Source of the DNA: Desulfomonile tiedjei DSM 6799
Lineage (GTDB): Bacteria; Desulfobacterota; Desulfomonilia; Desulfomonilales; Desulfomonilaceae
Reading direction: 5' to 3'
DNA: 64,000 bases
Assembly (NCBI RefSeq): GCF_000266945.1
Contig: NC_018025.1
Location: 868,001 to 932,000 of the forward strand
Part shown: piece after piece, positions 21,438 through 51,030 of the stretch
Numbering within the stretch: position 1 is the stretch's first letter
Layout: each line of letters starts with the position of its first letter
Translations under genes and position numbers: made by a program
The notes under the pieces: model-generated
Told to the model about the DNA's origin: nothing
The model's database searches: none
What the model saw: only the letters and a program-made list of their open reading frames with translations

Positions 21438-21498
21438 CTCGGTTCGGAGAAGAACTTCTAAAAAGCTCCTCTCCCATCCTCCTTACTGCATGGCGTTC

Positions 21499-21593
21499 GA
21501 TTCAAATCCCCCCAGCCCCCTTTACGAAAGGGGGGATAAGAGGCAAGATCTTAATTCCTCCCTCATTAAAGGGAGGTTAGGGGGATTTGAATC
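21499..21593. repeat. CCCCCTTT/AAAGGGGG dispersed repeat, copy 1
   Basis: Terminal inverted repeats GATTCAAATCCCCC (left) and GGGGGATTTGAATC (right, 21580-21593) are perfect over 14 bp. Inside are two CCCTTTA..AAAGGGG hairpins. Related copies lie at 23399-23706 (interrupted) and 61563-61652. Confidence 0.7.
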
Positions 21594-21840
21594 CCCGACG
21601 TTACGTGAAAGTCCCATTTCCCTTTTGAATGGAAAGGGACGGCTCTACGATTTCTCTGATGATATTTTTCCAAGATTCGATCCGAGTCCGTTTGGGCGTT
21701 CACGGATATTTCAACTCGAAAAAAAAATTGACACACAATTCGGCTTCCAATGATATAATATCGCTGCTGATGCCATTCCCGATGTGGTACGGGAATTGCT
21801 ATCGTTGCTGGTTTGAAGAATTGGATTTCCGAGAACGTCA

Positions 21841-23398: not shown

Positions 23399-23706
23399 GA
23401 TTCAAATCTCCCCAGCCCCCCTTTAAGGGGGGTAAGAGGCAACATCTTAATTCCCCCCTTATTAAAAGGGGGCAGGGAGCATAGGCGCTAACTTTTCTGC
23501 AATTCTTTGTCCCGCAGGGACTGAAGAAAATAGCCCGGTAATTCATTGCCGGGATTTTATGTATCCGCCGTCCCTCTGGACTCTAAAATCATTAGGTTTT
23601 TTCCTTATCCGGCGATGAATCGCCGACCTATTGTCAGTTGTTCCTCCGGAACAAACGACCAAAAACGCCATAAGTTAGCGCCTATGGGGGGCTGGGGGGA
23701 TTTTTC
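23399..23706. repeat. CCCCCTTT/AAAGGGGG dispersed repeat, copy 2, interrupted
   Basis: Left part GATTCAAATCTCCCCAGCCC onward (from 23399) matches copy 1, including AAGAGGCAA and CTTAATTCC blocks. The expected right end appears only after a 207-bp insertion, as GGGGGCTGGGGGGATTTTT. Confidence 0.6.
23480..23686. mobile_element. MITE-like element with perfect 15-bp terminal inverted repeats
   Basis: CATAGGCGCTAACTT (23480-23494) and AAGTTAGCGCCTATG (23672-23686) are exact inverted repeats. The interior has several short complementary blocks (CCGGTAATTCATTGCCGG; CGGCGATGAATCGCCG; GTTCCTCCGGAAC). No coding capacity. It interrupts copy 2 of the CCCCCTTT repeat, so it arrived later. Confidence 0.7.
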
Positions 23707-23822: not shown

Positions 23823-23893
23823 GCTCCACCGACTGCTGAAGACAAATCAGTGAAATGGTCTTTTTCCGCGCCCGATCCAAATTCGCTCTAAAT

Positions 23894-23909
23894 CGGCACC
23901 GCTTTTGCA
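23894..23909 (+). promoter_or_regulatory. Sigma-54 (-24/-12) promoter of the dehalogenase-like operon
   Basis: CGGCACCGCTTTTGCA matches the consensus TGGCACGN4TTGCA at all but two fixed positions, with the required GG-to-GC spacing (GG 23895-23896, GC 23907-23908). The first gene of the operon starts 52 bp after it. Confidence 0.7.
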
Positions 23910-23960: not shown

Positions 23961-24434
23961 ATGAAAAGCGGATTTCGAGACAAAAAGCTTGTATCGCGGT
24001 TGCTTCTGATCGTGGTCGGTTTTGTAGTCGCTACAGCTATAATCTTCGGCCTTTCTTCAAGAAAGATAAGACATGAATACTGCTGGGCAAAAGAGACCAC
24101 ATCAGGAGAGATGAACGAGACGCACATACAGCCCAGCGAGATCATGAACTCCCTCCGGAATGTCCGGGATCCCGAGATTGACATCAATATTGTGGATCTC
24201 GGGCTGGTGTACGAAGTCCGAACAGAAGGTACTGCCGTATTCATAACGATGACACTTACCACGCCTGCCTGCCCCTATGGCCTCGAATTAATACGAGACG
24301 TCAAAAAAGAAGTGATGAAAGAGAATGTGCGGTCGTTGCGGCTTATCGTCACCTTCGATCCTCCTTGGACAGTGGAGAAGATGGCTCCTGATATCGGGCT
24401 GAAGAGATTCAGTCAAGAGAGGAGCATGCAATGA
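23961..24434 (+). CDS. Membrane-anchored MIP18/DUF59 (SufT/PaaD-like) Fe-S assembly protein
   Basis: 157 aa. An N-terminal membrane helix (LVSRLLLIVVGFVVATAIIFGL) precedes a complete DUF59 domain at about residues 55-140: SLRNVRDPEIDINIVDLGLVYEV, MTLTTPACPYGLEL (the reactive Cys of the family) and IVTFDPPWTVEKMAP. DUF59 proteins help mature Fe-S clusters; most are soluble, so the anchor is unusual. As first gene of an operon that encodes many Fe-S proteins, it probably aids cluster insertion in them. AGGAACGT precedes the ATG. The next gene overlaps by 4 bp. Confidence 0.85.
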   Translation: MKSGFRDKKLVSRLLLIVVGFVVATAIIFGLSSRKIRHEYCWAKETTSGEMNETHIQPSEIMNSLRNVRDPEIDINIVDLGLVYEVRTEGTAVFITMTLTTPACPYGLELIRDVKKEVMKENVRSLRLIVTFDPPWTVEKMAPDIGLKRFSQERSMQ

Positions 24435-25066
24435 CTCTTCAGTCTTTGGGGTCTCATCTTTTGAGCGGGTTTGGTTTGGGATTGACTACCGGGCCGTTTT
24501 GCTTTGCTGCTTGCTTCCCGGTACTTCTCTCCTTTGTGCTCGGTGACAAGCCCGATGCCACAAAAGAGACGTGGCATTTCGTGGGACGTTTCATAGCCGG
24601 TCGTTTTGCCGCGTACATGATAGTCGGGTTCATATCGGCAACTCTCGGCGCGATGTTGGGGGCAGCGACCCACAAGATTTGCGGTATTGCATGGGTAATC
24701 TTGTCTCTCTCTCTCATCGCTCACGGGCTGGGCCTAAAACTTCCTCATGGCGGACTTTGTGAATGGATAGCCCGGCAACCTGATAGGAAGCTATTCCCCT
24801 ATCTTGTTGGGGGACTCACTGCACTCAATGTGTGCCCGCCAGTTCTCCTCGCCATAACGTATTCCCTTAAATCAGGAAATTCCACAGCGGGCATAGCGGT
24901 GTTTGGAGCGTTTTTCGTTGCGACAAGTCTTTTCATTCTTCCAGCGGGTTTCGCCGGATATCTGCAGCGACTTGGATTTGTTTCGTGGCTCGGTCGTCTT
25001 CTAGCCGTTGTGGTGGGAATTGTATTCCTTTGGGAAGGTTTTTCCCTCTTGCGAGGGTACATATGA
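24431..25066 (+). CDS. CcdA/DsbD-like (sulfite exporter TauE/SafE family) membrane protein
   Basis: 211 aa with six predicted membrane helices. Two Cys-containing motifs, GLTTGPFCFAACFPVLLSF and ALNVCPPVLLAITY, match the paired Cys of the DsbD/CcdA transmembrane domain. These proteins pass reducing equivalents across the inner membrane for cytochrome maturation or disulfide reduction. The ATGA overlap with the upstream gene indicates translational coupling. It may keep periplasmic Cys ligands of the operon's Fe-S proteins reduced, which is an inference. Confidence 0.8.
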   Translation: MTLQSLGSHLLSGFGLGLTTGPFCFAACFPVLLSFVLGDKPDATKETWHFVGRFIAGRFAAYMIVGFISATLGAMLGAATHKICGIAWVILSLSLIAHGLGLKLPHGGLCEWIARQPDRKLFPYLVGGLTALNVCPPVLLAITYSLKSGNSTAGIAVFGAFFVATSLFILPAGFAGYLQRLGFVSWLGRLLAVVVGIVFLWEGFSLLRGYI

Positions 25067-25497
25067 AAACCACTGCTTTTCCAGGGTCATTACCATACGG
25101 AAAAAAGAAGGTTACGTCTATGTACATGCTCCTCTTTTACGTGCTTGCTTGCGTCCTTATGGCATTATCCACAGTGTTAGCCGGTATACAATGGACCGAA
25201 GCCAATGGGGTTGGGCCGTACATTCGGCTTTTGCTCAACAAACCTTTCATAATCATCATTACCGTTACCATCTTTGTTTTGAGCGGCATTCTGACGCAAA
25301 TCGGAAAATTTCATTTCGATTTGTCCTACTACAAGATTTCAATCATCTGGTTTGCCACTTCTTGGGTAAGCTTGATCGTTTTGTGGCTTTGTCATGGCAT
25401 CAAACCCTGTCGAGCCGAATTGCTGGGACTGGCTCTCTGCCATCTGGGTCTCGCTGTGTCCATAGTAGGTCGAACTGAACAGGGTTTTTTGCCTTGA
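25063..25497 (+). CDS. Four-helix membrane protein, unknown function
   Basis: 144 aa from the ATG at 25063, which overlaps the upstream stop as ATGA and follows GAGGG. An alternative ATG at 25120 follows AAGAAGG and removes a 19-residue polar leader. The core has four hydrophobic segments (MLLFYVLACVLMALSTVLAG; PFIIIITVTIFVLSGILTQIG; ISIIWFATSWVSLIVLWLCHG; AELLGLALCHLGLAVSIVG), with an outline like half of an EamA/SMR transporter but no clear family match. Position in the operon suggests a membrane role with its neighbours. Confidence 0.65.
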   Translation: MKTTAFPGSLPYGKKKVTSMYMLLFYVLACVLMALSTVLAGIQWTEANGVGPYIRLLLNKPFIIIITVTIFVLSGILTQIGKFHFDLSYYKISIIWFATSWVSLIVLWLCHGIKPCRAELLGLALCHLGLAVSIVGRTEQGFLP

Positions 25498-25580
25498 GAC
25501 CACAAACGGATCGGCAACGGCCGAAGTGCTTGCGGTCGTTGTGAAAATAAGAAAGGCACGGAATCGAAAGGAGGTAAGCA

Positions 25581-25943
25581 ATGGAATCAGTAGTCAGTCA
25601 ACCGAGACCGATTCCGAACTGGGCATCCCGGTTATTCGCCCTACGGTGGTACGAGTGGCTCGGCTGGCTTCTAGAGGTAGGTCTCGTGTCCACGTTTATC
25701 CTGGTCACGGTCACCCAGTTTCTCGAAGACGAAGCACGAGGTGGATGGGTGATGATCGTGTTGACCATTCTCTTCTGCGCTCCGGGAGTGTGGATCTTGC
25801 TGGGGTATAGGCCTGCATTAGGGAGCAAACTTGGCAAACAAGATATTGGGTTGGCAATCGCTTTCGCGATTTGGGCCATACTTTTCATCTACTTGATCGG
25901 ATTTCTGCCACAACACGAACAGGGTCCTTTCGGGAGCCCCTAG
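25581..25943 (+). CDS. Membrane anchor-like protein (RdhB-like role), RWYEW motif
   Basis: 120 aa with three hydrophobic segments, directly 5' of the larger RdhA-like gene (28 bp). A striking LRWYEWLGWLLE motif at the start of the first helix recurs as RWYEWIGWTVE in the 61-aa protein at 28968-29153, next to the second RdhA-like gene. Dehalogenase catalytic subunits are normally paired with a small membrane protein, RdhB. This protein fills that position, but it has no sequence pattern I recognise from canonical RdhB. AAAGGAGG precedes the ATG. Confidence 0.65.
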   Translation: MESVVSQPRPIPNWASRLFALRWYEWLGWLLEVGLVSTFILVTVTQFLEDEARGGWVMIVLTILFCAPGVWILLGYRPALGSKLGKQDIGLAIAFAIWAILFIYLIGFLPQHEQGPFGSP

Positions 25944-25971
25944 CCGGAAGATTGGACAGGAGAACGTACCA

Positions 25972-27651
25972 ATGAAAGACAGGCGTATGTTAGGCGTGCT
26001 GGCATTCCTCGTGTGGTGGGGCATCTGGGGAGCGCTGCTCACGGGGACCCCATTCAAAATCGGTGAACGAAAAATCTATCCCCCCGAGCAAGGCCTGGGG
26101 ACAATTCCTTACGTTGGGAATGACATCAAAAATCTTCAAAGACTTAGCATCAAAGATTTTGCGTCATTTATTTACGGTAATCAGCCTTCACGAGGCCCGA
26201 AAGGGACCACGTTCGATATGGTCAATCACAGAAAGGAAATACCTCAACTTGCGTCGATAATTCACAATACGACCCGATTCGGCGCTCCTGAAATGGTTGA
26301 AGGGTTTTGGGGACCGGTTAATCCGAAGAAAGTAGACCTGCCGGACCCGGTTACGCTCACGAAGTTCGTTAAGGAGATGGCACTGTACCTGGGAGCGGTT
26401 GATGTCGGAATCGCGGATTTGGGGCCGAATCCTGAAGTCTGGTTCTTCCAAGACGACTCATTCGGTTATCCATTGCAGGTCAAACCTGCAGAGCATCGGT
26501 ACGCCATCGTAACCGTTAACGAAGAGAAACAGTCCTTGCATCCCTACCCCACGGGATGGAATGTCGACTCCATACGATACTATAGCAAGGTATCGAAGAA
26601 CTACTGGGATGACGACTTCGTTGCCGGTCACATCGCGGAAATGGTTCGCATGATGGGCTATCACGCGTGGGGACACAATAACGCCTACGTAAAGAGCGTT
26701 CCCTTAGCCATTATGGCAGGTCTCGGAGAATACGGGCGTTTTGGAAATTTGATCACCCTCAACTGGGGAAGCAACGTGCGTATCAATGCGGTAACGACCG
26801 ATCTGCCTCTCATTCCGGATAAGCCGATACATATCGGCGTTGCAGACATTTGTGAGAAATGCACGAGATGCATCGATTACTGTCCCATGAAAGCGATACC
26901 CATAGAAGAGATGGAATTCATGGGAGTTCGTACCTGGAAACCGAATTTCTGGAAATGTAGGCGTGCGACAGTAGTCGGACTGAACAATGTGACCGATGCT
27001 AGCACGTGCACTCTGTGCAGGGACGTCTGTCCCTTTGTCAAGGATACTACTACTCCAGCTCATAAATTGGGCCGGTATATGGTGAGTCGTTCCAGCATAG
27101 GAAGGAGATTTATCTTAAATCTTGATTATCTTTTGTATTCACGTTGGAACAGGCACGGCCTGCAACAAGTGATGACCGACAGACGTACGCGGCTGCGTGA
27201 GGCGAATGCAAAGTATCCTGAAGGAGACTGGTGCAAAGAATGGTTTACTACAGGAACCAAAGATGAAAAAGGCCGCCGTATTTATCGCGAAAAGAATCCT
27301 GATGGCATCATGGCCGTTGCCAAAGGAGGGATCGGCATAACCAATCCTTTCTACTCTTCAAAAGACTTGGCGGAACCAACCTTCGGCAAATGGCCGACCT
27401 GGGAAGATCCTTGGGGAAGAAAGATCCTGGGATATGAGGATGGCAAAGAGGGTGCTCCAAGACTCAACCTGAGGCCAACTGTGAGAATGATAGGAAGTAC
27501 CGTCCTGTCAGGGGTGGCTGGAAGTCCGATGGTAGCTTATGCCCTCAAGAAGATGCTTCCGGAGGAAGCTAGAAACCAAGAACCTGAAACTTGGTGCGGT
27601 GCCGGGTTCGACACTGCATGCAATCCGCGCTCGAACAGCTACGCTTGGTAG
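25972..27651 (+). CDS. Reductive dehalogenase-like protein (RdhA), large
   Basis: 559 aa (about 63 kDa). An N-terminal hydrophobic anchor (MLGVLAFLVWWGIWGALLTG) follows MKDRR; a canonical Tat motif RRxFLK is not present, only RRMLG. The C-terminal half has the RdhA fingerprint: IMAGLGEYGRFGNLI...VTTDLPLIPDKP, then two [4Fe-4S] sites, CEKCTRCIDYCP and C-x15-CTLCRDVCP. RdhA proteins bind a corrinoid and two Fe-S clusters and take electrons to remove halogen from organic substrates. A C-terminal extension adds CGAGFDTAC. AGGAGA precedes the ATG. A second RdhA-like protein follows in the same operon. The substrate cannot be told from sequence. Confidence 0.85.
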   Translation: MKDRRMLGVLAFLVWWGIWGALLTGTPFKIGERKIYPPEQGLGTIPYVGNDIKNLQRLSIKDFASFIYGNQPSRGPKGTTFDMVNHRKEIPQLASIIHNTTRFGAPEMVEGFWGPVNPKKVDLPDPVTLTKFVKEMALYLGAVDVGIADLGPNPEVWFFQDDSFGYPLQVKPAEHRYAIVTVNEEKQSLHPYPTGWNVDSIRYYSKVSKNYWDDDFVAGHIAEMVRMMGYHAWGHNNAYVKSVPLAIMAGLGEYGRFGNLITLNWGSNVRINAVTTDLPLIPDKPIHIGVADICEKCTRCIDYCPMKAIPIEEMEFMGVRTWKPNFWKCRRATVVGLNNVTDASTCTLCRDVCPFVKDTTTPAHKLGRYMVSRSSIGRRFILNLDYLLYSRWNRHGLQQVMTDRRTRLREANAKYPEGDWCKEWFTTGTKDEKGRRIYREKNPDGIMAVAKGGIGITNPFYSSKDLAEPTFGKWPTWEDPWGRKILGYEDGKEGAPRLNLRPTVRMIGSTVLSGVAGSPMVAYALKKMLPEEARNQEPETWCGAGFDTACNPRSNSYAW

Positions 27652-27706
27652 CTCCTGCAATACTCCAGGGCCGGTTCCTTCAAGGACCTGCCCTGAGGAC
27701 AGCAAA

Positions 27707-27871
27707 ATGGCAAATGATAATAAAGATAACGACCTAGGTTTCCTGGTAATGATGATTGCCGGAGGAATCGCAGGTGCATGTTTTAACGTCGCTCTCGGCT
27801 CGTTTGTCTGGAATCTTGAGGGCATACTCGGCGGGCTGATAAGCGGGCTTCTCGTTCACTTTGTCTCCTAG
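27707..27871 (+). CDS. 54-aa two-helix membrane protein between the RdhA-like genes
   Basis: The ATG at 27707 follows GAGGA by 7 nt and the frame ends 14 bp before the second RdhA-like gene. After a short charged N-terminus (MANDNKDND) come two hydrophobic segments, LGFLVMMIAGGIAGACFNVALG and ILGGLISGLLVHFVS. Size and place suggest a membrane anchor or assembly partner of one of the RdhA-like proteins. It is easily missed because it is so short. Confidence 0.65.
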   Translation: MANDNKDNDLGFLVMMIAGGIAGACFNVALGSFVWNLEGILGGLISGLLVHFVS

Positions 27872-27885
27872 GAAGAAGGAACAGG

Positions 27886-28971
27886 ATGTTATCACGAGAA
27901 CATACGAGGAAAACCGTGATCCTTGCCGGGAGCTTTGCGTTCTTTGCTTTTTGGGTAGCGCTCCTGCTTCCCATGGATACAAATCTCCGGGGAGGTTACC
28001 TGGTTGCCGGAGAGGTGAAGCAAGCAAACGATCCGAAACTTGTTTTTGCCGCCCTAATGGCGCCGGAATATAACGGACCGAAGGATAGAACATTTTCGTT
28101 TCAGGGTATCTGCAACGAGTCCATCAGCGTTCCTCTCGAGGCGCCCGTCAGCGCCATAAAGACTGTCGTAACGGACCGATCGGCCAAATCCCTTGAGATC
28201 AAGGATGTGGCTAAATCACTGGGAGCGGACCTCGTGGGGATATGCGAATTGGATCCGCGATGGAAATTCAAAGGCGTGCCGCTCGATCACAAGTACGCCG
28301 TTGTAATAGCTGAAGCTCTCCCTTATTACTTGTGCAAGGAGCAGGAAGACAACATTAAGGCAATGCTTGCGACCAGAGCCACGCTGGATTTCTACCGTGC
28401 CGGGGGAAAAGTGGCTCTATTCCTGGCAAAAGCCATTTGGGAGCAAGGTTATCCGGCTCGCGCCCACTATGAGAGCTGGAGCCAGGTGATGACCATTCCA
28501 ATAGCGATAGATGCCGGTCTAGGGGAATTGGGGAGAAACGGCATGCTCATAACCCCGGAATTCGGACCTCGCTGCCGCATCTCCATTGTCACTACGGACC
28601 TTCCGCTCGAACCGGACAAACCGAAAGCTCTCGGCATAACTGAGACGTGTCAACTCTGTGACAAATGTGCTCTCGCCTGCCCTGCTAAAGCCATACCCAA
28701 AGGTAGTGAGACTCTGTCGGGAGGTGTCTCAAAATGGCCGGTAGACATGGAGAAATGTTTCAACTACTGGTACAAGGGCGAAAACTCCTGGATCAGATGC
28801 CTTACGTGCATGACGAGTTGTCCTTGGAACAAGCCTGATAATCTGCTCCACAGAATCGGAATCTTCCTCGCATCACGCTCCTCCTTCAGTCGTTGGCTCC
28901 TGGTCAAAGTCGACGATGTGATGGGATATGGTCAATGGGTGGACACCTTACCGAAGGAGACTCCTCAATGA
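27886..28971 (+). CDS. Reductive dehalogenase-like protein (RdhA), small
   Basis: 361 aa (about 40 kDa). An N-terminal hydrophobic segment TVILAGSFAFFAFWVALLLP serves as anchor or Sec signal; no Tat motif. The body shows the RdhA core IAIDAGLGELGRNGMLITPEFGPRCRISIVTTDLPLEPDKP and two Fe-S sites, CQLCDKCALACP and C-x15-CLTCMTSCP. It is shorter than typical RdhA because the N-terminal region is reduced. It resembles epoxyqueuosine reductase only through the shared corrinoid/Fe-S fold; the anchor and locus favour the dehalogenase family. AAGGAACAGG precedes the ATG. The following small gene overlaps it (ATGA). Confidence 0.82.
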   Translation: MLSREHTRKTVILAGSFAFFAFWVALLLPMDTNLRGGYLVAGEVKQANDPKLVFAALMAPEYNGPKDRTFSFQGICNESISVPLEAPVSAIKTVVTDRSAKSLEIKDVAKSLGADLVGICELDPRWKFKGVPLDHKYAVVIAEALPYYLCKEQEDNIKAMLATRATLDFYRAGGKVALFLAKAIWEQGYPARAHYESWSQVMTIPIAIDAGLGELGRNGMLITPEFGPRCRISIVTTDLPLEPDKPKALGITETCQLCDKCALACPAKAIPKGSETLSGGVSKWPVDMEKCFNYWYKGENSWIRCLTCMTSCPWNKPDNLLHRIGIFLASRSSFSRWLLVKVDDVMGYGQWVDTLPKETPQ

Positions 28972-29153
28972 TGGGCATTAGATGGTACGAATGGATAGGA
29001 TGGACTGTCGAGGCCCTCGTCATAGCGCTTGCAATCGTTTTCATCGGCTCGACGATTTCGGAGGGAGAAATTCGTCCGATTCTCGTCAGCACGATCGGAT
29101 TCGGAATCGTCATCGGCGCATGGACCTGGGTAATGCTCAAGTGCGGAAGATAG
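28968..29153 (+). CDS. 61-aa two-helix membrane protein, RWYEW motif
   Basis: AAGGAG lies 8 nt before an ATG at 28968 that overlaps the upstream stop. The sequence opens MMGIRWYEWIGWTVEALVIALAIVFIG, then IRPILVSTIGFGIVIGAWTWVML. The RWYEWxGWxxE motif is shared with the 120-aa protein at 25581, so each RdhA-like gene has its own related anchor. This is a likely RdhB functional analogue. Confidence 0.7.
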   Translation: MMGIRWYEWIGWTVEALVIALAIVFIGSTISEGEIRPILVSTIGFGIVIGAWTWVMLKCGR

Positions 29154-29164
29154 GAGCACTAGCG

Positions 29165-29488
29165 ATGGTCTATTCTGTGATTCATGATGTAACCCAGTGG
29201 TTGCTCATGTTTATCGGCTTTTGCGTAGTTCTGTGGAGCATAGGAAACTCATACTTCTCCAGAGAGCGCGGGAGAGTGATGGAGGTTGGAATGCCGGCCG
29301 ATTGCAGTGCCTATAACAGGGCTGCCGTAATCCTCCTGCTCATCGAACTGGAAGACGGTAAGATTGAGAAAGCGGAAATGAGTCCTTGTGCAGCGTGCAT
29401 GGAAAAAATAAAGACGGGTGATGTCGTGACGCTCATCAGGAGTGCCGACCGAGTTATTGCGCAAAAAGGGGTGTCGTGGTGTCTCTAA
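29165..29488 (+). CDS. Single-span membrane protein with Cys motif, unknown (107 aa)
   Basis: The ATG at 29165 follows AGGAG. One membrane helix (WLLMFIGFCVVLWSIG) is followed by a small beta-rich domain with MPADCSAYNRAAVILLLIELEDGKIEKAEMSPCAACMEKIKTGDVVTLIRSADRVIAQKGVSWCL. The CxxC and two further Cys could bind a metal or carry out thiol chemistry. No family recognised. Its 3' end overlaps the GTG start of the transporter gene by 13 bp. Confidence 0.6.
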   Translation: MVYSVIHDVTQWLLMFIGFCVVLWSIGNSYFSRERGRVMEVGMPADCSAYNRAAVILLLIELEDGKIEKAEMSPCAACMEKIKTGDVVTLIRSADRVIAQKGVSWCL

Positions 29489-30942
29489 GTCTGGTCGGCG
29501 CGCTTTCTTTGGGATGGTTTTTCATGCTGATGTTGGCGTCTGTTCGTCTGTGGATACCCCAAAGAATCTTGACACTCCAGTCGTTATTACTGGGAGGAGC
29601 CTTGCTGCTCCTGGTACTGGCGAAGGTATTCGGCACGGATGTTCATCTACCTGCTCTTCTCACCACGACAACACTGAATCCGATTACTGCTACAATTGGC
29701 GGTTTTCTCTTGGCCGGCGCAGTCGAAGCTGCTGGTGGCTTTGCTGCCGCTGGCGCTATTCTGGTCCGCTTATCCAAAGGTTTTTTCGGTTTGTCCGGAA
29801 CCGTCATCCTGTTGGTAAACAGCCCGACCATTTTTGCCATGCCGTGCGGACGCATCTGGGCCGCAGCACTTATGCCGGCAGCACTCATTTTCGGAGTCGA
29901 CCTTGCTCGAAGACATGCAAATCCCGTACTGCTACCCGTTATAGTCTTCGGTCTTATCGCTAATGCAGCGGCTTCCTGCGGGCCATCCCCTCTTGGAGGC
30001 ATTGGAATGATGGGAGAAGGGCTGGGAGGATTTCTCCAGGGAAGCTTCATCAAGCCTCAGCAATTGGCAATCATGGGCATCACGATGGTTACAATGGTGG
30101 CTGTCGGTTTGTGGCAAAAGATAGGAATCAGGCCTGAGACATTGAAAAAAACCGTTATTCACCAACGAAAACTGCCGAGTACTGCTTATTATGTTTTCTT
30201 CTTTTACGTCGTCTGTCTTATTGCTGTCTTTATGTTGAAACCTTCCATCCCAATTCAGACTATTCTACTCGGAATGACAGTGGTGATTGTGTTTTTAGGA
30301 AAGGTATCCCTTCATGACCTGATTGCGGGCATAATTCTTCATCCTATCACTGCGATGATAGCGGGATTCATCATGGCCGGCGCCCTTGTTGTCACCGGCG
30401 CATTCGATACGCTTGTTTTCATTCTCCGGTACCTTGCTTTACATACACCCCTTGGTTTTCTGGGAGTATCGATACTCCTCGTTTATCTTCCCATTATATT
30501 CCCTATGCCTTGCGGCCGAGTCATGGTAGCAGCGCTTTTGCCGGGAGTCGTCATGTTCGGCAAGGAAGTCGCTGAGATCACGAATCATCCAGAAGCATTC
30601 AGTGGCCTATTGATCGCCTTTATTCTCAGTTGTGCAGCTTCTTGCTCCTCCTCACCTCTAGGAGGAATAGGGGGCATAGCGGAAGGAAACCTTGGGATTA
30701 AACCGGGAATAGCAGGAAAACCCTTGCAACTTGGTATTCTAGTTGGTGTGCCCGTGGCATCTCTGATCGCCACTTCTTTAGGGTTTTCGTTCCAGATGTC
30801 GTGGGCAGACGAGCTGTTTGTGTTTGCGGGATTTGGCCTGGTGTTCGGCGCTGCAGCGAACCTCATCCTGGGACAATCATTTTACAGACCCGGAGGTTTG
30901 TTGAGTGGGCTCCTTTCGGCTGTGCTGATGTGGATAATGTAA
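29476..30942 (+). CDS. Internally duplicated 12-helix transporter of ion-transporter type
   Basis: 488 aa from a GTG at 29476 with AAGGGG upstream. The two halves are clear repeats: half 1 has PTIFAMPCGRIWAAALMPAALIFG and AASCGPSPLGGIGMMGEG; half 2 has PIIFPMPCGRVMVAALLPGVVMFG and AASCSSSPLGGIGGIAEG. Such inverted or direct repeats with a Ser/Gly-rich re-entrant loop are typical of the IT superfamily of anion/dicarboxylate carriers. The substrate is not evident. Within a reductive-respiration operon it may move an organic acid substrate or a halide product; this is an inference. Confidence 0.65.
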   Translation: MVSLSLVGALSLGWFFMLMLASVRLWIPQRILTLQSLLLGGALLLLVLAKVFGTDVHLPALLTTTTLNPITATIGGFLLAGAVEAAGGFAAAGAILVRLSKGFFGLSGTVILLVNSPTIFAMPCGRIWAAALMPAALIFGVDLARRHANPVLLPVIVFGLIANAAASCGPSPLGGIGMMGEGLGGFLQGSFIKPQQLAIMGITMVTMVAVGLWQKIGIRPETLKKTVIHQRKLPSTAYYVFFFYVVCLIAVFMLKPSIPIQTILLGMTVVIVFLGKVSLHDLIAGIILHPITAMIAGFIMAGALVVTGAFDTLVFILRYLALHTPLGFLGVSILLVYLPIIFPMPCGRVMVAALLPGVVMFGKEVAEITNHPEAFSGLLIAFILSCAASCSSSPLGGIGGIAEGNLGIKPGIAGKPLQLGILVGVPVASLIATSLGFSFQMSWADELFVFAGFGLVFGAAANLILGQSFYRPGGLLSGLLSAVLMWIM

Positions 30943-30943
30943 A

Positions 30944-31420
30944 ATGAAACGGGTATTTTTTTATTTCAATGTAGGCTCTAGCTGTGCGGCAATTCTCTTC
31001 TTGGGCCTCTTTCCCATGAATGCTCTTCTCTCCGGGTACCCGTGGACGATTACGTGTTACAACTGCAATATTTGCAGACTAGCGTGTCCCGCAGGGATAG
31101 ATCCTTATGGTTTTGTAATCGCCGCTCTTGTCAACGACCCCGATCACTATATGTCCGCAACACGCCTTCGGCTCAGGCTCGCTCAAGCAGAAGCCCTAGA
31201 TCCGGAGATGCTCGTCTCGGTGAATAAGACGAAGATGAAAGCCCGAGAAGCTCGAATTACGGGTATTCCTGAGGAAACCGAGGTAACGATAATAGCCATG
31301 AAAGCGAAACACGCGGCAAAGTATTGCTTCTTGTGCGCAAATTGTTCGAAACAGTGCCCCATCAGTCTTCCTATAAAGGATATCGCCCAGGAATTGTCCG
31401 AGAAGGGAGGATTTCGGTGA
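30944..31420 (+). CDS. Membrane-anchored ferredoxin-like protein 1 (HdrC/GlpC type)
   Basis: 158 aa. One N-terminal helix (FNVGSSCAAILFLGLFPMNALL) is followed by CYNCNICRLACPAGIDPYGF and, after a helical insert of about 75 residues, CFLCANCSKQCPISLP. Both are [4Fe-4S] C-x2-C-x2-C-x3-CP sites with the long helical spacer seen in HdrC/SdhB-like electron carriers. It starts 1 nt after the transporter stop and overlaps the next gene (GTGA). Role: electron transfer at the membrane to or from the RdhA-like proteins (inferred). Confidence 0.8.
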   Translation: MKRVFFYFNVGSSCAAILFLGLFPMNALLSGYPWTITCYNCNICRLACPAGIDPYGFVIAALVNDPDHYMSATRLRLRLAQAEALDPEMLVSVNKTKMKAREARITGIPEETEVTIIAMKAKHAAKYCFLCANCSKQCPISLPIKDIAQELSEKGGFR

Positions 31421-32061
31421 ACAGAGCGCTCATCTTGGTTATAGCTTTTGCGGTGCTGACGGGCTTCTGTTACATCTTCCAGAAATCCCCCGAGATTATT
31501 ACGGAAGGATTGTACCCAGTCGTAAGGGCAACCGAATCGTCTTTCGAATTTGATTCGGATTCCATAAATATCACGTTACATGAGAAAGCAGCGACCGACA
31601 GGATTGCAGTTTTTGGTTACGATACCCAAAATCGGCAGGTAGTCATGATAAAGCCTGTGCGAAACTGTACGAAGATAGTCATTAGACCGGGAGATTTTGC
31701 CGATTACCGGGTGTCATTAGAACAGGACGAGGTGAAGGGGTCTGAAATACTTCGAGAAGTTCCCGGTATCAGTAAGAGTGTCGATTTCTTCAAACTTCTC
31801 GTGGAAGCCAAAGCAGCTTCTCGGCGCTATGGTGTGCAGGACTGTTTGTATCCCTTTTGTACCCGCTGCATGGATGTATGCCCTGTCATCAAGCATGGAG
31901 TTATCAAAATGAAAATTGACAAGCAGGGCGCTTTCTATCCGGCAATCCACCTCACAGGCTGTCCCAGAAGTGGAAAATGCTTTGCGGTATGTAGAGTCGG
32001 TGCAATCTTGAGTGTGAGCAAAGCTGCAGGAGAGAAAATATCTACAAGACCTGCTGAGTAG
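31417..32061 (+). CDS. Membrane-anchored ferredoxin-like protein 2
   Basis: 214 aa from a GTG at 31417 (AAGGGAGG upstream) overlapping the previous stop. An N-terminal anchor (ALILVIAFAVLTGFCYIF) precedes a beta-rich domain of about 90 residues (SFEFDSDSINITLHEKAATDRIAVFGYD) with no recognised family, then a ferredoxin part: CLYPFCTRCMDVCPVIKHGVIKMKID and CPRSGKCFAVCRVGAI. The Cys spacing allows two [4Fe-4S] clusters. The beta domain outside the membrane is unusual for a ferredoxin and may be the docking part. Confidence 0.75.
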   Translation: MNRALILVIAFAVLTGFCYIFQKSPEIITEGLYPVVRATESSFEFDSDSINITLHEKAATDRIAVFGYDTQNRQVVMIKPVRNCTKIVIRPGDFADYRVSLEQDEVKGSEILREVPGISKSVDFFKLLVEAKAASRRYGVQDCLYPFCTRCMDVCPVIKHGVIKMKIDKQGAFYPAIHLTGCPRSGKCFAVCRVGAILSVSKAAGEKISTRPAE

Positions 32062-32078
32062 ATATGTAGGAGGAATCT

Positions 32079-32387
32079 ATGTTGCTTGCAGCATATACTG
32101 CCGGCACCGTACTCTTGATAAGCACGGTCATCCTGCTGGTGGTCTATCTTTGCTTAACTAGACATGTCCAGGTACTTCTGTGCACCGAATGCCAACAGTG
32201 TAAATCCTTTTGCCCGATGCTTTCGCGCGGCTGCGATCCCGTTGCCATTATGAAAGCAGCGAAAAGCGGCCGTGGTGACATGATTACATCCTGCACCGGA
32301 TGTCGAGCTTGCACGAGAGGATGCCCCCAGGGCCTTGAGCCCTATCTGGAAGCAAAAAAAATGGAAAGTCGCCGAGCTTTCTCGTGA
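32079..32387 (+). CDS. Membrane-anchored ferredoxin-like protein 3
   Basis: 102 aa. An N-terminal helix (AYTAGTVLLISTVILLVVYLCL) is followed by two sites, CTECQQCKSFCPMLSRGCDP and CTGCRACTRGCPQGLEP, each a C-x2-C-x2-C-x3-C. GTAGGAGG precedes the ATG. Three consecutive single-span ferredoxins suggest a chain of clusters on one face of the membrane. Confidence 0.8.
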   Translation: MLLAAYTAGTVLLISTVILLVVYLCLTRHVQVLLCTECQQCKSFCPMLSRGCDPVAIMKAAKSGRGDMITSCTGCRACTRGCPQGLEPYLEAKKMESRRAFS

Positions 32388-32411
32388 AACAGAGGAATGG
32401 AAGGTGGGCGC

Positions 32412-34241
32412 ATGAAGAAGTTTGTGGTTCTCATCGTCATCATCATCTCCCTTACTTCCTTCGCCAGTTTTGGAAAAGCTCTGGACGCAGGTTCCCCGGA
32501 AATCATTGCCGCTCTAAACTACTTCAAGTCAGCGCAGTTGGATGATGGCGGTTTCGGTCCGGGCGGTCTTACTGAATGGGTAATGATGGCCATAGCTGCT
32601 GCAGGGCAGGATCCTCGCTATTGGCGTAAGAACGGTAAGACTCCCATGGATTATCTCCGAAAGCGGAACCTGACAAACACACCTTCTGATTGGATCAGGA
32701 TGGTTCTGGTGCTCGTCTCGGTTGGCGAGAATCCTCGGAATTGGCAGGGAACCGATTTAGTTGAGAAAATCAAATCGAATTACAGGAACGATCAGTTTGG
32801 CGACGAACTCTCTCTACGTGACGATTTCTGGGCGACTATCGCCTTAATTGCAGCAGAGGAATCGGACTCTCCATACGTAGCCGCTTCGGTTCGCTTCATA
32901 CTTGAACACCAGAATCCGGACGGTAGCTGGGGCGCATCAACCACGGGCATCGAAATAGGTCCTGATAATACTGCTACCGCTGTCATTTCCCTTCTGGCAG
33001 CCGGACACCCCAAAGATTCCGCAGCCATAAAGAGGGCGATTCATTATCTGAAGACTATTCAGAATTCTGACGGAGGATTTCCCTATCTGTTTGTCCCCTC
33101 CAATGCTGCGACGGATTCCCTGGTCATGCAAGCTTGTTCGGCTTATTCGACGGATATTCTTTCCGAGAAGATGCATGACCGTGTGGTAGCACATTTGCTG
33201 CAACTTCAGGAGACGGACGGGTCCTTCAAATGGACGGAGACTTCTTGGGACGGCAAGCTGATGATGACCGCTCACGCTGTAACCGGTCTTCTCGGAAAAT
33301 ACTATCCCATTCATCCCGCTCTCTCGGATTGGATTACGGTCGATGTGCGAATCGAAGGAAAGGATCACACGCTGGTTCACTGCCCCATTACCACTCCATC
33401 ATCATCTGCCACGCCGCTCTCAGTCCTTGTGGAAGCGTGCATGCAGGCCGGGATTGAACATGAAATTACGCAAGTGAAAGATTCATCTTATTTGAAATCC
33501 ATCCAGGGCGATAGAGATGTCTGGCAATTCAGAATAAACGATGTTCTTCCCATGTCTGCCGCTGATTCCCTCAAACTTGCCAGCGGAGACGAGCTTGTTT
33601 GGTTCTACGATCCTGAGGGCTGCAGAAGTACTCTGAAACTGGAACTGTGTACTCTTTCTCTCTGCCCCGGGGAAGAAGCACATGTACGAGTGACACAGTT
33701 CGACGATGAAACAGGCTCCTGGAAGGATTGCCCCAATTACGCTCTTGTTGTGGATCAGGGCATACAAAGTTCAAGCAATGGGGTGAGTACAATTCACTTC
33801 TCCAAAGAGGGAACATATTCTCTGCATGCGGAAAAATCCAACGGCATAAGATCGGTTAAGAAAATTGTCACTGTAGAGCAATGCCACCCGATTACAGTTC
33901 GTGTTCGCATAGAAGATGAAAAGCTTGTGCCTTGGGAAGGATTGGTAACGTGTTCCGGAGCAGAAATTATTGACTTGAAAGGACAGAGAATTCAACTCCG
34001 TAAACCGGTGCTCGTTTCCGCCCTTGAAGGAGCCCGAAGAAGTGGTGCGATAGAGTATACAACAGTCAAGACTGCTCAAGGACTAATTCTGGTATCTATA
34101 AACGGCCAAAGTGAGGACAACACGAACGGCTCCTGGTGGTACGAAGTCAATGACAAAAGGGTTCATAGCAACATTGACGAATACGTCCTGAACGATGGAG
34201 ACAAACTCCTCTTCTACCGGAGTCCTCAGCACCGAAAGTAG
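32412..34241 (+). CDS. Exported transcobalamin/intrinsic-factor-like protein (alpha/alpha toroid + two DUF4430 domains)
   Basis: 609 aa from the ATG at 32412 (GGAAGGTGG upstream). Signal peptide MKKFVVLIVIIISLTSFASFGKALDA. Residues about 30-315 are an alpha/alpha toroid of the squalene-cyclase/prenyltransferase repeat class, with QW-like turns QLDDGGFGPG, QNPDGSWGAS, QNSDGGFPYL and QETDGSFKWT. A DUF4430 domain follows (about 317-405: LSVLVEACMQAGI, SIQGDRDVWQFRIND, LASGDELVWFY), then an Ig-like segment, then a second DUF4430 (about 500-609: NTNGSWWYEVNDK, LNDGDKLLFY). Toroid plus DUF4430 is the fold order of animal transcobalamin and intrinsic factor. In an operon of corrinoid enzymes this suggests cobalamin binding outside the cytoplasm. 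The function is inferred. Confidence 0.75.
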   Translation: MKKFVVLIVIIISLTSFASFGKALDAGSPEIIAALNYFKSAQLDDGGFGPGGLTEWVMMAIAAAGQDPRYWRKNGKTPMDYLRKRNLTNTPSDWIRMVLVLVSVGENPRNWQGTDLVEKIKSNYRNDQFGDELSLRDDFWATIALIAAEESDSPYVAASVRFILEHQNPDGSWGASTTGIEIGPDNTATAVISLLAAGHPKDSAAIKRAIHYLKTIQNSDGGFPYLFVPSNAATDSLVMQACSAYSTDILSEKMHDRVVAHLLQLQETDGSFKWTETSWDGKLMMTAHAVTGLLGKYYPIHPALSDWITVDVRIEGKDHTLVHCPITTPSSSATPLSVLVEACMQAGIEHEITQVKDSSYLKSIQGDRDVWQFRINDVLPMSAADSLKLASGDELVWFYDPEGCRSTLKLELCTLSLCPGEEAHVRVTQFDDETGSWKDCPNYALVVDQGIQSSSNGVSTIHFSKEGTYSLHAEKSNGIRSVKKIVTVEQCHPITVRVRIEDEKLVPWEGLVTCSGAEIIDLKGQRIQLRKPVLVSALEGARRSGAIEYTTVKTAQGLILVSINGQSEDNTNGSWWYEVNDKRVHSNIDEYVLNDGDKLLFYRSPQHRK

Positions 34242-35517: not shown

Positions 35518-37839
35518 ATGTCCGACGTCTACCTTGCACACTCAGCCAATCGATTTAACAGAGTCGATTATTTGCGGGAACACCTTAAAGACGTAGCAGC
35601 TCTTGCCCAAGAATTCGCCTCTGTGTTCGGCGCGTCAGCCGAAGCCAATGTTGTTGGCCTGCTTCACGACATCGGGAAGTACGGCAGTCTTTTTCAGAAG
35701 CGTCTGGAAAATCCACGCCAAGAGAAAGGCATTGACCATTGGTCAGCAGGCGCCTGGATTGCTCTGATGAAATTTAAGCAGCAGGGCATTGCTGCAGCAT
35801 TGGCAATTCAAGGTCACCATGTGGGCTTGCAACAACTCGATAATGACACTCTGAGGACATTGAACCTTGGGGAATTGCAGAAGAACCATCCTTTGGAATT
35901 GCGAATCTCCGAGGCCGATTGGGAAGAACTGCTCACTAGATTTCATGACGATAGCCTGCAACTGCCTGAGCCGCAGGAAATTCACACTTCCCTATTGGAG
36001 AACCACGATTTAAATGTGGCAGCAATGCTGGACATTCGCATGTTATTTTCGGCGCTGGTTGATGCCGACTTCCTGGCAACAGAGGCGCATTTTCAACCGG
36101 CAGTCACGGGGGAAAGATGCTTTCGCAAACGTGGCCTTGCTCTAAATGCAGAGAGAGATTGGAACATTCTGTCACTCTTTTTGGACGACCTTTCAGCAAA
36201 ATCAGATGCTTCTCTGGTCGTGAAAAGGCTCAGAGCAGACTTGTTGCAGGCATGTATCGTGGAAGCGTCTCGCCCTCCAGGGCTATTTACTCTAACGGCT
36301 CCGACTGGGACTGGCAAGACACTGAGCATGCTCGCTTTTGCACTGAAACATGCGCTTGTGCACGGCCTCCGGAGAATCGTCGTGGTGGTCCCGTACTTGA
36401 GTATTATTGAGCAGACCGTTAGCGCATATCGAACGGTCTTTCAATTTGCCCAAGATGGCAGCAATACGGAGCATTACATTCTGGAGCACCACAGTCTGGC
36501 CGGAACGAAACAAGTTGGGGAAGACTCTCGAGGTCGCGATGATGATATGGAGGATGAGAGCCGCCGTATGCGTCGATTGCTCGCCGAGAATTGGGATGCG
36601 CCTATTGTTGTCACTACCAACGTCCAATTCTTGGAGTCTCTCTTTGCAAATCGTTCTGCCGCTTGTCGCAAGTTGCACCGATTGGCCAGAAGCGTCATCC
36701 TCTTCGACGAGGTTCAAACGTTTTCAGTTGACAAAGCAATCCCCACATTGGCGGCCCTTTCCAGACTCGTGGAAAGGTACGATTCCACCGTCGTGTTATC
36801 CACAGCCACACAACCTGCTTTCCGTCATCTGCATTTGGCTGTTCAGAAAAGTTGTAAAGCGGGATGGCAGCCCAAAGAAATAGTCTCCGCGGAACTAAGG
36901 CTGTTTGAGCGCGCGAAAAGAACCACCGTCGAATGGTCTAATCACCCAATATCGTGGAGCGATCTGGCAGATCGTTTAGCACAGGAACGTCAGTTGTTAT
37001 GCATCGTGAATCTCAAACGGCACGCGCTGACCGTATATCGAGAACTCAAAAAGAAAAGCCTGGAAGGCTTGTTTCATATGTCCACGGATATGTGCCCTGC
37101 TCATCGAACTGAAGTACTAAAAAAGATAAACATGCGTCTAAACGAAGATAAATCATGCCGTCTCATTTCCACCCAATGTGTAGAAGCTGGCGTCGACATA
37201 GATTTTCCTACAGTTTTCAGAGCATTGGGGCCGTTTGATGCCATTGCGCAGGCAGCGGGACGATGCAACCGCAAAGGAAACTTCGGGCTCCGTACGGTGC
37301 ACGTATTTCTGCCCGACGACGAAGCGTATCCCCAAGATGGGGCTTACTCCCGGGCAGCTCAGGTAACCCGAATGTTCCTCAATGAATTAGAGAACTCGGA
37401 CGTGGACATACACTCACCCGGAATGTTCCACGAGTACTATTGCCGATTATATGATTTGTTGGACATGGAAAGCCAGAATAGGCCTCTGAAAGATGCTCTT
37501 AACCTGAGAGATTTCACAAAAGTGGCCGACCTATATCGAATCATCGACAGTGATACCATCAACGTGTTAGTCCCATATGATCATCAAACCTTTCAGAAGC
37601 TTCGGAATGAAGCATTGGCAAGCGGTATCACGAGGCACTGGATTGCCAAGGCGCGGCCATATACCATAGGGATGTTTCGGCCAAAGCCCGATCACCCTCT
37701 CTGGCTATATCTGGAAGCTGTTCCGCTAAAGAGCAGAAAGCCTTCTGGGGATTGGTTCGTCTATTTTGAGGCTCGTCACTACAGTTCAGAGACGGGGTTA
37801 GTCGTCCCCTCTGAATTGAGCGACTGCCTGATAGCCTAA
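35518..37839 (+). CDS. cas3: Cas3 nuclease-helicase, type I-C
   Basis: 773 aa, HD nuclease fused to SF2 helicase. The HD domain has GLLHDIGKYG near residue 52, DHWSAGA and GHHVG. The helicase has Walker A APTGTGKT near residue 260, a DEAD-box variant LFDEVQTF near 396, STATQPAF (motif III), and QAAGRCNRKG (motif VI). It is recruited by Cascade to nick and degrade target DNA. First gene of a seven-gene operon; GGAGA precedes the ATG. All catalytic motifs are intact, so interference is likely active. Confidence 0.95.
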   Translation: MSDVYLAHSANRFNRVDYLREHLKDVAALAQEFASVFGASAEANVVGLLHDIGKYGSLFQKRLENPRQEKGIDHWSAGAWIALMKFKQQGIAAALAIQGHHVGLQQLDNDTLRTLNLGELQKNHPLELRISEADWEELLTRFHDDSLQLPEPQEIHTSLLENHDLNVAAMLDIRMLFSALVDADFLATEAHFQPAVTGERCFRKRGLALNAERDWNILSLFLDDLSAKSDASLVVKRLRADLLQACIVEASRPPGLFTLTAPTGTGKTLSMLAFALKHALVHGLRRIVVVVPYLSIIEQTVSAYRTVFQFAQDGSNTEHYILEHHSLAGTKQVGEDSRGRDDDMEDESRRMRRLLAENWDAPIVVTTNVQFLESLFANRSAACRKLHRLARSVILFDEVQTFSVDKAIPTLAALSRLVERYDSTVVLSTATQPAFRHLHLAVQKSCKAGWQPKEIVSAELRLFERAKRTTVEWSNHPISWSDLADRLAQERQLLCIVNLKRHALTVYRELKKKSLEGLFHMSTDMCPAHRTEVLKKINMRLNEDKSCRLISTQCVEAGVDIDFPTVFRALGPFDAIAQAAGRCNRKGNFGLRTVHVFLPDDEAYPQDGAYSRAAQVTRMFLNELENSDVDIHSPGMFHEYYCRLYDLLDMESQNRPLKDALNLRDFTKVADLYRIIDSDTINVLVPYDHQTFQKLRNEALASGITRHWIAKARPYTIGMFRPKPDHPLWLYLEAVPLKSRKPSGDWFVYFEARHYSSETGLVVPSELSDCLIA

Positions 37840-37861
37840 ATAAGTTCACAAAGGAGGTCAT

Positions 37862-38605
37862 ATGCGTCCGAACGATCAAGTTCTGGAGGTGTGGGGCGAG
37901 TTCGCCTGTTTTTCCAGACCGGAATTTAAAGTGGAACGTTTCAGCTACCCCATTATCACCCCATCGGCTGCTCGCGGGATATTTGATGCAATCTACTGCA
38001 AACCTAATAAAGATCCAACACGAGCCGAATTTAGATGGCAGGTGACCAAAATAGAAATTCTAAATCCTCCGAAGTACATCGCTTTGCGCAGGAATGAAGT
38101 AAAAGAAAAAGTCTCCGTCAAACCTGCATGGATTACGGGAAAGGAAAATCCCAAACCCATTTTGGCTGATGCGACGAAGGATGCTGTGGGAGGAAACGAC
38201 GAGAAAGGGCGCACTCAGCGGCAGACGATGGCGCTAAAAGACGTTCGATATCGTCTGCATGCTCAGATTCGTCCCTGGAAAGGCTTTGAAAGCAGCCTCC
38301 CTGCGCTCGAAGCTCAGTTCAGAAGACGCTCCCGAAACGGTAAGTGTATATACCAGCCCTATTTTGGTTGTCGTGAATTCCCCGCCTATTTTGAATTAGT
38401 AGAAGTCCTTTCGGACGCTGCCAAGCCAGTCTCGATTGATATCGATATCGGCCTAATGCTCTATGATGTCTTTGATCTGTCAAAGCCTGGGACAAGTGAC
38501 GATCAGCCCAATATAAGTCTGTTCCAATGCAAGGTTCGTCAAGGCATTGTCGAGATTCCGGATTATGACAACGATGAGGTGCTTAAACCACACCTAGGGG
38601 GATGA
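37862..38605 (+). CDS. cas5c: Cas5d (Cas5c), crRNA-processing Cascade subunit
   Basis: 247 aa. The N-terminus VLEVWGEFACFSRPEFKVERFSYPIITPSAARGIFDAIYCKP is the type I-C Cas5 signature. In this subtype, which has no Cas6, Cas5d cleaves the pre-crRNA at the repeat and stays on the crRNA 5' handle. AAAGGAGG precedes the ATG at 37862. Its stop overlaps the cas8c start (ATGA), showing translational coupling. Confidence 0.95.
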   Translation: MRPNDQVLEVWGEFACFSRPEFKVERFSYPIITPSAARGIFDAIYCKPNKDPTRAEFRWQVTKIEILNPPKYIALRRNEVKEKVSVKPAWITGKENPKPILADATKDAVGGNDEKGRTQRQTMALKDVRYRLHAQIRPWKGFESSLPALEAQFRRRSRNGKCIYQPYFGCREFPAYFELVEVLSDAAKPVSIDIDIGLMLYDVFDLSKPGTSDDQPNISLFQCKVRQGIVEIPDYDNDEVLKPHLGG

Positions 38606-41488: not shown

Positions 41489-41508
41489 CATGAGGCTTGG
41501 GGGGCGTG

Positions 41509-43247: not shown

Positions 43248-43255
43248 GTATAGCC

Positions 43256-43546
43256 ATGCTGGTGCTCGTGACCTATGACGTGAACGTGCAGACTCCGGAA
43301 GGTAGGAAACGACTTCGTCTGGTAGCAAAGACCTGCAAGAACATGTGTCAGCGAGTTCAGAAATCGGTGTTCGAATGTCTGGTCGATCCGGCGGAGTGGG
43401 TCATTCTGAAAAACAAGTTGGAGGGGACAATCGACCCGGAGATTGACAGTCTTCGATTCTATTATCTTGGAAAGAACTGGAAGCGACGAGTGGATCATAT
43501 GGGTGCCAAAGAGCCGTACGATCCAGAGGGACCACTTTTGGTATAG
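43256..43546 (+). CDS. cas2: Cas2
   Basis: 96 aa from the ATG at 43256 with GGAGGT upstream. The ferredoxin-like fold begins MLVLVTYDVNVQTPEGRKRLR, with the conserved Asp in TYDV, and ends RVDHMGAKEPYDPEGPLLV, as in I-C Cas2. Structural partner of Cas1 in spacer acquisition. Last gene of the operon, 188 bp before the first repeat. Confidence 0.94.
   Translation: MLVLVTYDVNVQTPEGRKRLRLVAKTCKNMCQRVQKSVFECLVDPAEWVILKNKLEGTIDPEIDSLRFYYLGKNWKRRVDHMGAKEPYDPEGPLLV

Positions 43547-43734: not shown

Positions 43735-51030
<7,296 letters not shown>

Follow-up and report, generated by a model that had tools for sequence, protein, structure and literature searches.

We analysed a 64,000-nucleotide stretch of the genome of Desulfomonile tiedjei DSM 6799 (C1:868001-932000, hereafter the window); the genome consists of two contigs, the larger being 6,500,104 bases long, and totals 6,527,027 bases. 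The subject of this analysis is an operon at window positions 23961-34241, whose 14 genes share one strand, are separated by short gaps or overlap slightly, and follow a gene for a sigma-54-dependent activator. In 5' to 3' order, they encode a DUF59 protein, a DsbD_2/CcdA-like protein, a 123-residue membrane protein, the membrane anchor RdhB1, the reductive dehalogenase homologue RdhA1, a 54-residue protein, RdhA2 and RdhB2, followed by a 107-residue cysteine-containing protein, a 488-residue permease, three anchored ferredoxins and a 614-residue secreted protein (Table 1). The layout rdhB1-rdhA1-x-rdhA2-rdhB2 places two RdhA/RdhB sets within one operon.

The original prediction, made from the letters of this region, had described a sigma-54 operon with two RdhA-like proteins, their small membrane neighbours and a possible electron route, and had linked it to the purified 3-chlorobenzoate dehalogenase of D. 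tiedjei. All genes that it named were found where it had placed them. Pfam searches and hydropathy bear out the iron-sulphur (Fe-S) assembly protein of the DUF59 type (PF01883), the CcdA-like protein (PF13386) and three single-span 4Fe-4S proteins of 158, 245 and 102 residues, so that dedicated electron-transfer and Fe-S-type accessory genes do accompany two anchored RdhAs in one operon. That description is extended here by the genes at 25126-25497, 27707-27871 and 29165-29488, by the permease, by the recognition of the last gene product as a transcobalamin-like protein, by a related gene set in a second genome, by a residue-level test of RdhA identity and by a competing rdhAB locus of the twin-arginine translocation (Tat) type. 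The permease belongs to no Pfam family, and its structure model (predicted local distance difference test score, pLDDT, of 41) was too poor for a fold search. Base composition gives no sign of a genomic island, with a G+C fraction of 0.500 in the operon and 0.503 in the window. Overall, the operon is real and uncommon, and the main guess holds up under the available tests, except that the anchors are ordinary RdhBs.

Identity of the RdhA and RdhB proteins

Sequence comparison places both catalytic subunits closest to the catabolic dehalogenase NpRdhA (E values of 8e-32 for RdhA1 and 2e-48 for RdhA2), followed by PceA (1e-24 and 3e-33). The best NCBIfam family for both is RDH (TIGR02486), with 143.7 bits for RdhA1 and 153.5 bits for RdhA2, while QueG (epoxyqueuosine reductase) reaches 49 and 50 bits. 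Catalytic residues were read by alignment on Y426/K488 of NpRdhA, the equivalents of which are Y211/R270 in RdhA1 and Y170/R231 in RdhA2; the same Tyr/Arg pair occurs in the orthologues of both proteins in a metagenome-assembled genome (MAG) discussed below. At the second of these sites, Arg is found in the sampled Tat RdhAs, Lys in catabolic RdhAs and Tyr or Phe in two annotated QueG proteins. The 4Fe-4S motifs CxxCxxCxxxCP and CxxCxxxCP start at residues 294 and 346 of RdhA1 and at 255 and 305 of RdhA2. In a maximum-likelihood tree on 235 core columns, each orthologous pair is monophyletic with a support of 100 and lies inside RdhA, with QueG split off at 93. The deep branching order within RdhA is poorly supported, and RdhA1 and RdhA2 therefore need not be sisters.

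Grouping with QueG was the outcome that the original prediction had singled out for a tree to decide. QueG is the nearest other family (E values of 2e-5 and 1e-8), but the family scores, the tree and the second catalytic residue all favour RdhA, and a separate QueG-like gene lies elsewhere in the genome, at C1:5230920. Membership of both proteins in QueG, or in a QueG-like group, is refuted by these comparisons and retains practically no probability. As judged by homology and motifs, RdhA1 and RdhA2 are true RdhA homologues, not QueG. A different kind of RdhA-like protein is encoded at G198:C61:7290-8066 (locus L017); with Asn in place of the catalytic Tyr and His in place of the Arg, it is probably not a dehalogenase.

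Two RdhA-like genes in one operon, each beside a small membrane protein with an RWYEW motif, had been presented as a departure from the usual rdhAB layout. The small proteins do adjoin each RdhA, but they are no oddity: aligned with RdhB of Dehalococcoides mccartyi, they display WYEW, a helix, an E-x-E loop at the same spacing and a second helix, the loop reading EDE in RdhB1, EGE in RdhB2 and EIE in the D. mccartyi protein. RWYEW is an RdhB trait, and its use as the mark of an unusual anchor is ruled out. Because WYEW and E-x-E are shared with D. mccartyi RdhB, both proteins are assigned as RdhB anchors, each RdhA being accompanied by its own. A profile search of RdhB against the PDB gave no match at E 10, the alignment being too short, and the motifs were used instead. 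In the RdhB of the orthologous operon, LDE replaces E-x-E.

Predicted membrane orientation and probable cofactor supply

The Tat motif RRxFxK of classical respiratory RdhAs is absent from RdhA1, RdhA2 and both orthologues. In agreement with the earlier description, each of the two D. tiedjei proteins carries one N-terminal hydrophobic segment, at residues 6-24 of RdhA1 and 10-28 of RdhA2. Residues 3-5 of RdhA1 read DRR, and the RR pair is not kept in the orthologue. Topology was derived from simple hydropathy and flanking charge, not from a trained predictor. The flanking charges of RdhA1, RdhA2 and the two orthologues (+2/+1, +2/-1, +4/+1 and +4/-1, respectively) point to an N-in/C-out arrangement, which also applies to the DUF59 protein and two of the ferredoxins; the 102-residue ferredoxin comes out as N-out/C-in. 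The catalytic domains of both RdhAs are predicted to lie outside the cytoplasm, on the positive (P) side of the membrane. In PceB, residues E61 and E63 of the loop are on the P side, and the same work ties C-terminal His, Asp and Tyr residues to quinol oxidation (PMC10624902). Apparent counterparts of these three residues can be found by eye in both RdhAs, for example H322, D343 and Y348 in RdhA2.

The reverse orientation (N-out/C-in), with RdhA1 and RdhA2 facing the cytoplasm, the permease importing a halogenated acid and the DUF59 protein working in the cytoplasm as usual, appears unlikely to us, if by no means far-fetched. A permease gene in the operon and the lack of a Tat motif in the RdhAs and their orthologues would suit it, and the D. 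tiedjei dehalogenase is itself said to have seemed cytoplasm-facing in work by Louie and Mohn in 1999. Some hybrid reductive dehalogenases are also predicted to have cytoplasmic C-termini (PMC6797604). In both RdhAs and in their orthologues, however, the flanking charges speak for N-in/C-out, the RdhB E-x-E loop lies on the P side in PceB, and the signal peptide of the transcobalamin-like partner places its action outside.

This partner is the 614-residue product of the last gene, which combines a signal-peptide-like N-terminus with squalene-cyclase-like alpha/alpha repeats and two DUF4430 domains. When a two-sequence AlphaFold model (pLDDT 59) was compared with the PDB by Foldseek, the top 15 matches were all transcobalamin, haptocorrin or intrinsic factor (E values of 1.6e-9 to 3e-7), and the isolated transcobalamin beta domain was matched as well. 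With VIA-align, the alpha domain scored slightly higher against squalene-hopene cyclases (Z 19.6) than against B12 carriers (Z 17.4). The alpha domain alone cannot discriminate, and the evidence is therefore the two-domain architecture: an exported protein in which an alpha/alpha barrel is followed by DUF4430 is what defines a transcobalamin-like protein, and the product of the last gene has this form. The vertebrate B12 carriers, its best fold matches, are likewise secreted and join an alpha/alpha barrel to a DUF4430 beta domain, whereas this candidate corrinoid binder is bacterial, contains two DUF4430 domains and shares about 15% identity with them.

Most likely, the 614-residue protein binds corrinoid extracytoplasmically and supplies or protects it for both RdhAs. 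A secreted corrinoid binder fits the operon because RdhAs need corrinoid, and the protein must act outside because its signal peptide is of the Sec type. In a limited search of the open literature, we found no paper that joins transcobalamin-like proteins to reductive dehalogenases. One strong partial match to the protein was found, at the end of a contig in genome G239; the 2.2 kb of sequence inspected there contain no rdh gene. PF07685, used as a probe for de novo corrinoid synthesis, matches nearly every control genome and is hence uninformative.

Several known systems resemble parts of this arrangement. PceAB of Desulfitobacterium hafniense, a menaquinol:organohalide oxidoreductase (PceA2B2, 8q4h), has in common with it the RdhA fold family, the Tyr/Arg pair, two 4Fe-4S motifs, membrane anchoring and a small RdhB with an E-x-E loop (WYEW being as in D. 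mccartyi). The D. tiedjei operon differs from PceAB in its two different RdhAs and two RdhBs, the lack of Tat and the N-terminal RdhA anchors; it adds transcobalamin-like, DUF59 and CcdA-like proteins and anchored ferredoxins, and has no RdhC or RdhT. Hybrid reductive dehalogenases (Atashgahi 2019, PMC6797604) also contain an RdhA domain without Tat that is tethered by its own N-terminus. They mostly possess three helices, a built-in RdhB E-x-E and no rdhB, in contrast to the one helix per RdhA and the separate RdhBs seen here, and their published table does not include D. tiedjei. Catabolic RdhAs (NpRdhA, Comamonas BhbA), which give the best sequence match and also have no Tat signal, are soluble, self-sufficient proteins fused to a reductase domain and bear Lys at the second catalytic site, where RdhA1 and RdhA2 have Arg. 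Another anchored RdhA was seen at G122:C13 (locus L049, 6735-10657), where two RdhAs are encoded a short distance apart and one is a hybrid bearing N-terminal helices. The pair sits in a cluster with an aromatic-acid-type CoA ligase gene and genes for transporters of the branched-chain amino-acid type; the other parts of the operon are absent, and this cluster possibly represents catabolic use of anchored RdhAs.

Proposed function and the purified 3-chlorobenzoate enzyme

Dehalorespiration was first established in D. tiedjei. The 3-chlorobenzoate dehalogenase of strain DCB-1 (Ni et al. 1995) is reported to be a membrane enzyme of two subunits near 64 and 37 kDa. PMC4771760 lists 64 and 37 kDa. 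The computed masses are 63.3 kDa for RdhA1 and 40.0 kDa for RdhA2 (about 36-37 kDa without the anchor), in line with the sizes of about 63 and 40 kDa given in the original prediction; masses alone do not identify an enzyme. We regard the RdhA1-RdhA2 pair as the strongest candidate, by sequence, for the 64/37 kDa dehalogenase; the match in size is suggestive and not proof. In the literature, no report was found of the gene of the two-subunit enzyme purified in 1995, and a search by locus tags returned nothing.

We hold with slightly more confidence than doubt that the operon encodes an inducible membrane-anchored corrinoid/Fe-S organohalide reductase that has two different catalytic subunits and brings its own means of cofactor supply, and that this operon is the best candidate for the 3-chlorobenzoate enzyme. 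The sigma-54 activator would sense a halogenated substrate and switch on one transcript. The N-terminal helices of RdhA1 and RdhA2, together with RdhB1 and RdhB2, would then tether the two proteins to the membrane, their catalytic domains lying on the P face. The two 4Fe-4S clusters in either RdhA might receive electrons from a quinol where RdhA meets RdhB, in the manner of PceA2B2, or by way of the anchored ferredoxins; the clusters would reduce the corrinoid, and the halogen would be removed with the conserved Tyr/Arg pair. The transcobalamin-like protein would meanwhile hold corrinoid ready outside the cytoplasm, and the anchored DUF59 and CcdA-like proteins may serve Fe-S or thiol upkeep. 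The operon is thereby a testable candidate, in a complete genome, for the purified two-subunit enzyme. If the proposal is true, the two different catalytic subunits, the absence of Tat and the transcobalamin-like protein widen the known RdhA architectures. A further step, in which the RdhAs leave the cytoplasm unfolded and independently of Tat and mature outside, with corrinoid from the transcobalamin-like protein and with Fe-S clusters built or maintained with the help of the anchored DUF59 (DUF1858 in the MAG) and CcdA-like proteins, strikes us as improbable; if true, a corrinoid/Fe-S respiratory enzyme would have a maturation route outside the cytoplasm.

Several observations weigh against the proposed reductase. 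The enzyme purified in 1995 reportedly gave haem-like spectra, which the operon does not explain, and no CxxCH haem motif is present in any operon protein. The cytoplasm-facing orientation attributed to the enzyme conflicts with the P-side prediction. The orthologous operon has a single rdhB only. The fold model of the 614-residue protein is of medium confidence, and a shared fold falls short of proof of binding. RdhA1 and RdhA2 both score below the TIGR02486 cut-off of 160.35 bits, which serves automatic naming and is no functional feature, and PF13486 matches RdhA2 only at an E value of 0.05 and RdhA1 not at all; both are therefore divergent RdhA homologues. Finally, a canonical Tat rdhAB locus is present elsewhere in the genome, its RdhA being encoded at C1:1666771-1668186 (locus L010, 11772-13187, minus strand).

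The last two points each lead to a different explanation. The 3-chlorobenzoate enzyme could be the Tat RdhA with its RdhB and NapG/NapH-like carriers, leaving the operon as an anchored dehalogenase for another natural organohalide. The Tat protein bears the motif RRDFGK, groups with Sulfurospirillum RdhA at 95 in the tree and is the genome's sole PF13486 match, and its locus also encodes a 74-residue RdhB in which the loop reads EHE, ferredoxin proteins resembling NapG/NapH, and a divergent sigma-54 activator of its own. It is the only other RdhA of the genome, and its mature mass of 47.6 kDa fits the 64/37 kDa values less well; a single RdhA of this size leaves both subunits unexplained. We judge this alternative unlikely, yet a genuine contender.

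Divergence would also agree with RdhA1 and RdhA2 being corrinoid/Fe-S reductases that act on a different substrate, perhaps with an electron-transfer role for one or both subunits. Their deep divergent branches, their scores under the family cut-off and the C-terminal extension of about 170 residues in RdhA1, which is kept in its orthologue, can be read in this way. On the other hand, both retain two hallmarks of dehalogenases, the Tyr/Arg pair and a cognate RdhB anchor, and both known bearers of the gene set are sludge-derived (the MAG by its title, D. tiedjei by its origin, PMC7031245), so that we consider a non-dehalogenase function quite improbable.

Conservation, regulation and surroundings of the operon

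Among 395 genomes sampled across the phylum, a relative of RdhA2 (51% identity) was found in one other genome, the MAG Go_SlDig_bin_103, which by its name stems from a sludge digester and belongs to a different class. Its contig carries relatives of 12 of the 14 operon proteins in rearranged order: RdhA1, RdhA2, an RdhB (one gene matched by both RdhB1 and RdhB2), the DsbD-like protein, the 54-residue protein, the Cys protein, the permease, the three ferredoxins and the 614-residue protein, as well as a sigma-54 activator. That the gene set has been kept together despite rearrangement argues for one working unit. In the MAG (L031 2958-3419), an anchored DUF1858 protein adjoins the DsbD-like gene, in the same slot as the anchored DUF59 protein of D. 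tiedjei; the two domains are unrelated.

RdhA1 is absent from the other sampled genome of the genus and from the rest of the family, and Candidatus Desulfomonile palmitatoxidans has no rdh genes (PMC7773648). No orthologues beyond the known two were found in the family or in the order and class of the MAG. One scan of genome contigs returned none, another nothing beyond the MAG itself and a distant protein from Verrucomicrobia, and a plasmid scan yielded only ordinary RdhAs and QueG. As far as these genomes tell, the operon is accessory and rare.

The designation as a sigma-54 operon holds for the activator gene, which is clear upstream; the promoter site is less certain. A -24/-12-like site, TCGGCACCGCTTTTGCA, lies 52 bp before the first start codon and has two mismatches. 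About five sites of this quality are expected by chance per window, so the match is weak alone. In the leader of the orthologous operon, CGGCACACCCCTTGC occupies the matching place and is the sole site there with fewer than four mismatches. Because both leaders carry the same CGGCAC-N5-TTGC, we think that the promoter before the DUF59 gene is real, though not proven. In Deltaproteobacteria, rdh genes commonly have sigma-54 activators nearby (PMC6299228).

Table 1. Genes and sites of the operon and its upstream region, in window coordinates.
Feature	Position	Strand	Evidence
Sigma-54-dependent activator, PAS + AAA+ + helix-turn-helix, 471 residues	21841..23256	+	Family search; 47% identity over 239 residues to activator upstream of orthologous operon
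Possible -24/-12 promoter TCGGCACCGCTTTTGCA	23893..23909	+	2 mismatches; CGGCAC-N5-TTGC also in orthologous leader
DUF59/MIP18-type Fe-S assembly protein, 157 residues, N-terminal anchor 14-32	23961..24434	+	PF01883 E 1.7e-15; N-in/C-out by charge
CcdA/DsbD-like membrane protein, 211 residues	24431..25066	+	PF13386 DsbD_2 E 2.6e-18; orthologue 36%
Small polytopic membrane protein, 123 residues, unassigned	25126..25497	+	Sequence; no homologue at orthologous locus
RdhB1 membrane anchor, 120 residues	25581..25943	+	WYEW + EDE loop
RdhA1, 559 residues, 63.3 kDa	25972..27651	+	N-terminal anchor, Tyr211, Arg270, two 4Fe-4S motifs; orthologue 37-40%
Hydrophobic protein, 54 residues	27707..27871	+	Conserved in orthologous operon, 38%, E 1e-6
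RdhA2, 361 residues, 40.0 kDa	27886..28971	+	N-terminal anchor, Tyr170, Arg231, two 4Fe-4S motifs; orthologue 51%
RdhB2 membrane anchor, 60 residues	28971..29153	+	RWYEW + EGE loop
Single-span protein, 107 residues, conserved SPCxxC motif	29165..29488	+	Orthologue 37%
Polytopic permease, 488 residues, two similar halves	29476..30942	+	No Pfam family; orthologue 45-47%
Anchored dicluster ferredoxin, 158 residues, N-in/C-out	30944..31420	+	Orthologue 43%
Anchored ferredoxin, at most 245 residues, N-in/C-out; start uncertain, probably downstream of listed TTG	31324..32061	+	Orthologue 39%
Anchored dicluster ferredoxin, 102 residues, N-out/C-in	32079..32387	+	Orthologue 34%
Secreted transcobalamin-like protein, 614 residues: signal peptide, alpha/alpha barrel, two DUF4430	32397..34241	+	Pfam, fold search; orthologue 40%

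The intergenic DNA flanking the activator gene (window 21480-21620 and 23400-23700) contains short C/T-rich CCCCCTTTAAGGGGGG-like repeats, which are perhaps remnants of a mobile repeat. Further along the window, at 35518-51000, genes resembling, by eye, a type I-C CRISPR-Cas system (CRISPR, clustered regularly interspaced short palindromic repeats) accompany an array of about 111 repeats of GTCGCCCCTCACGCAGGGGCGTGGATTGAAAC with a spacing of about 66 bp, in which the spacer TCATTATCAACCGATACAAGTTCCTTAAGTTCA is present twice.

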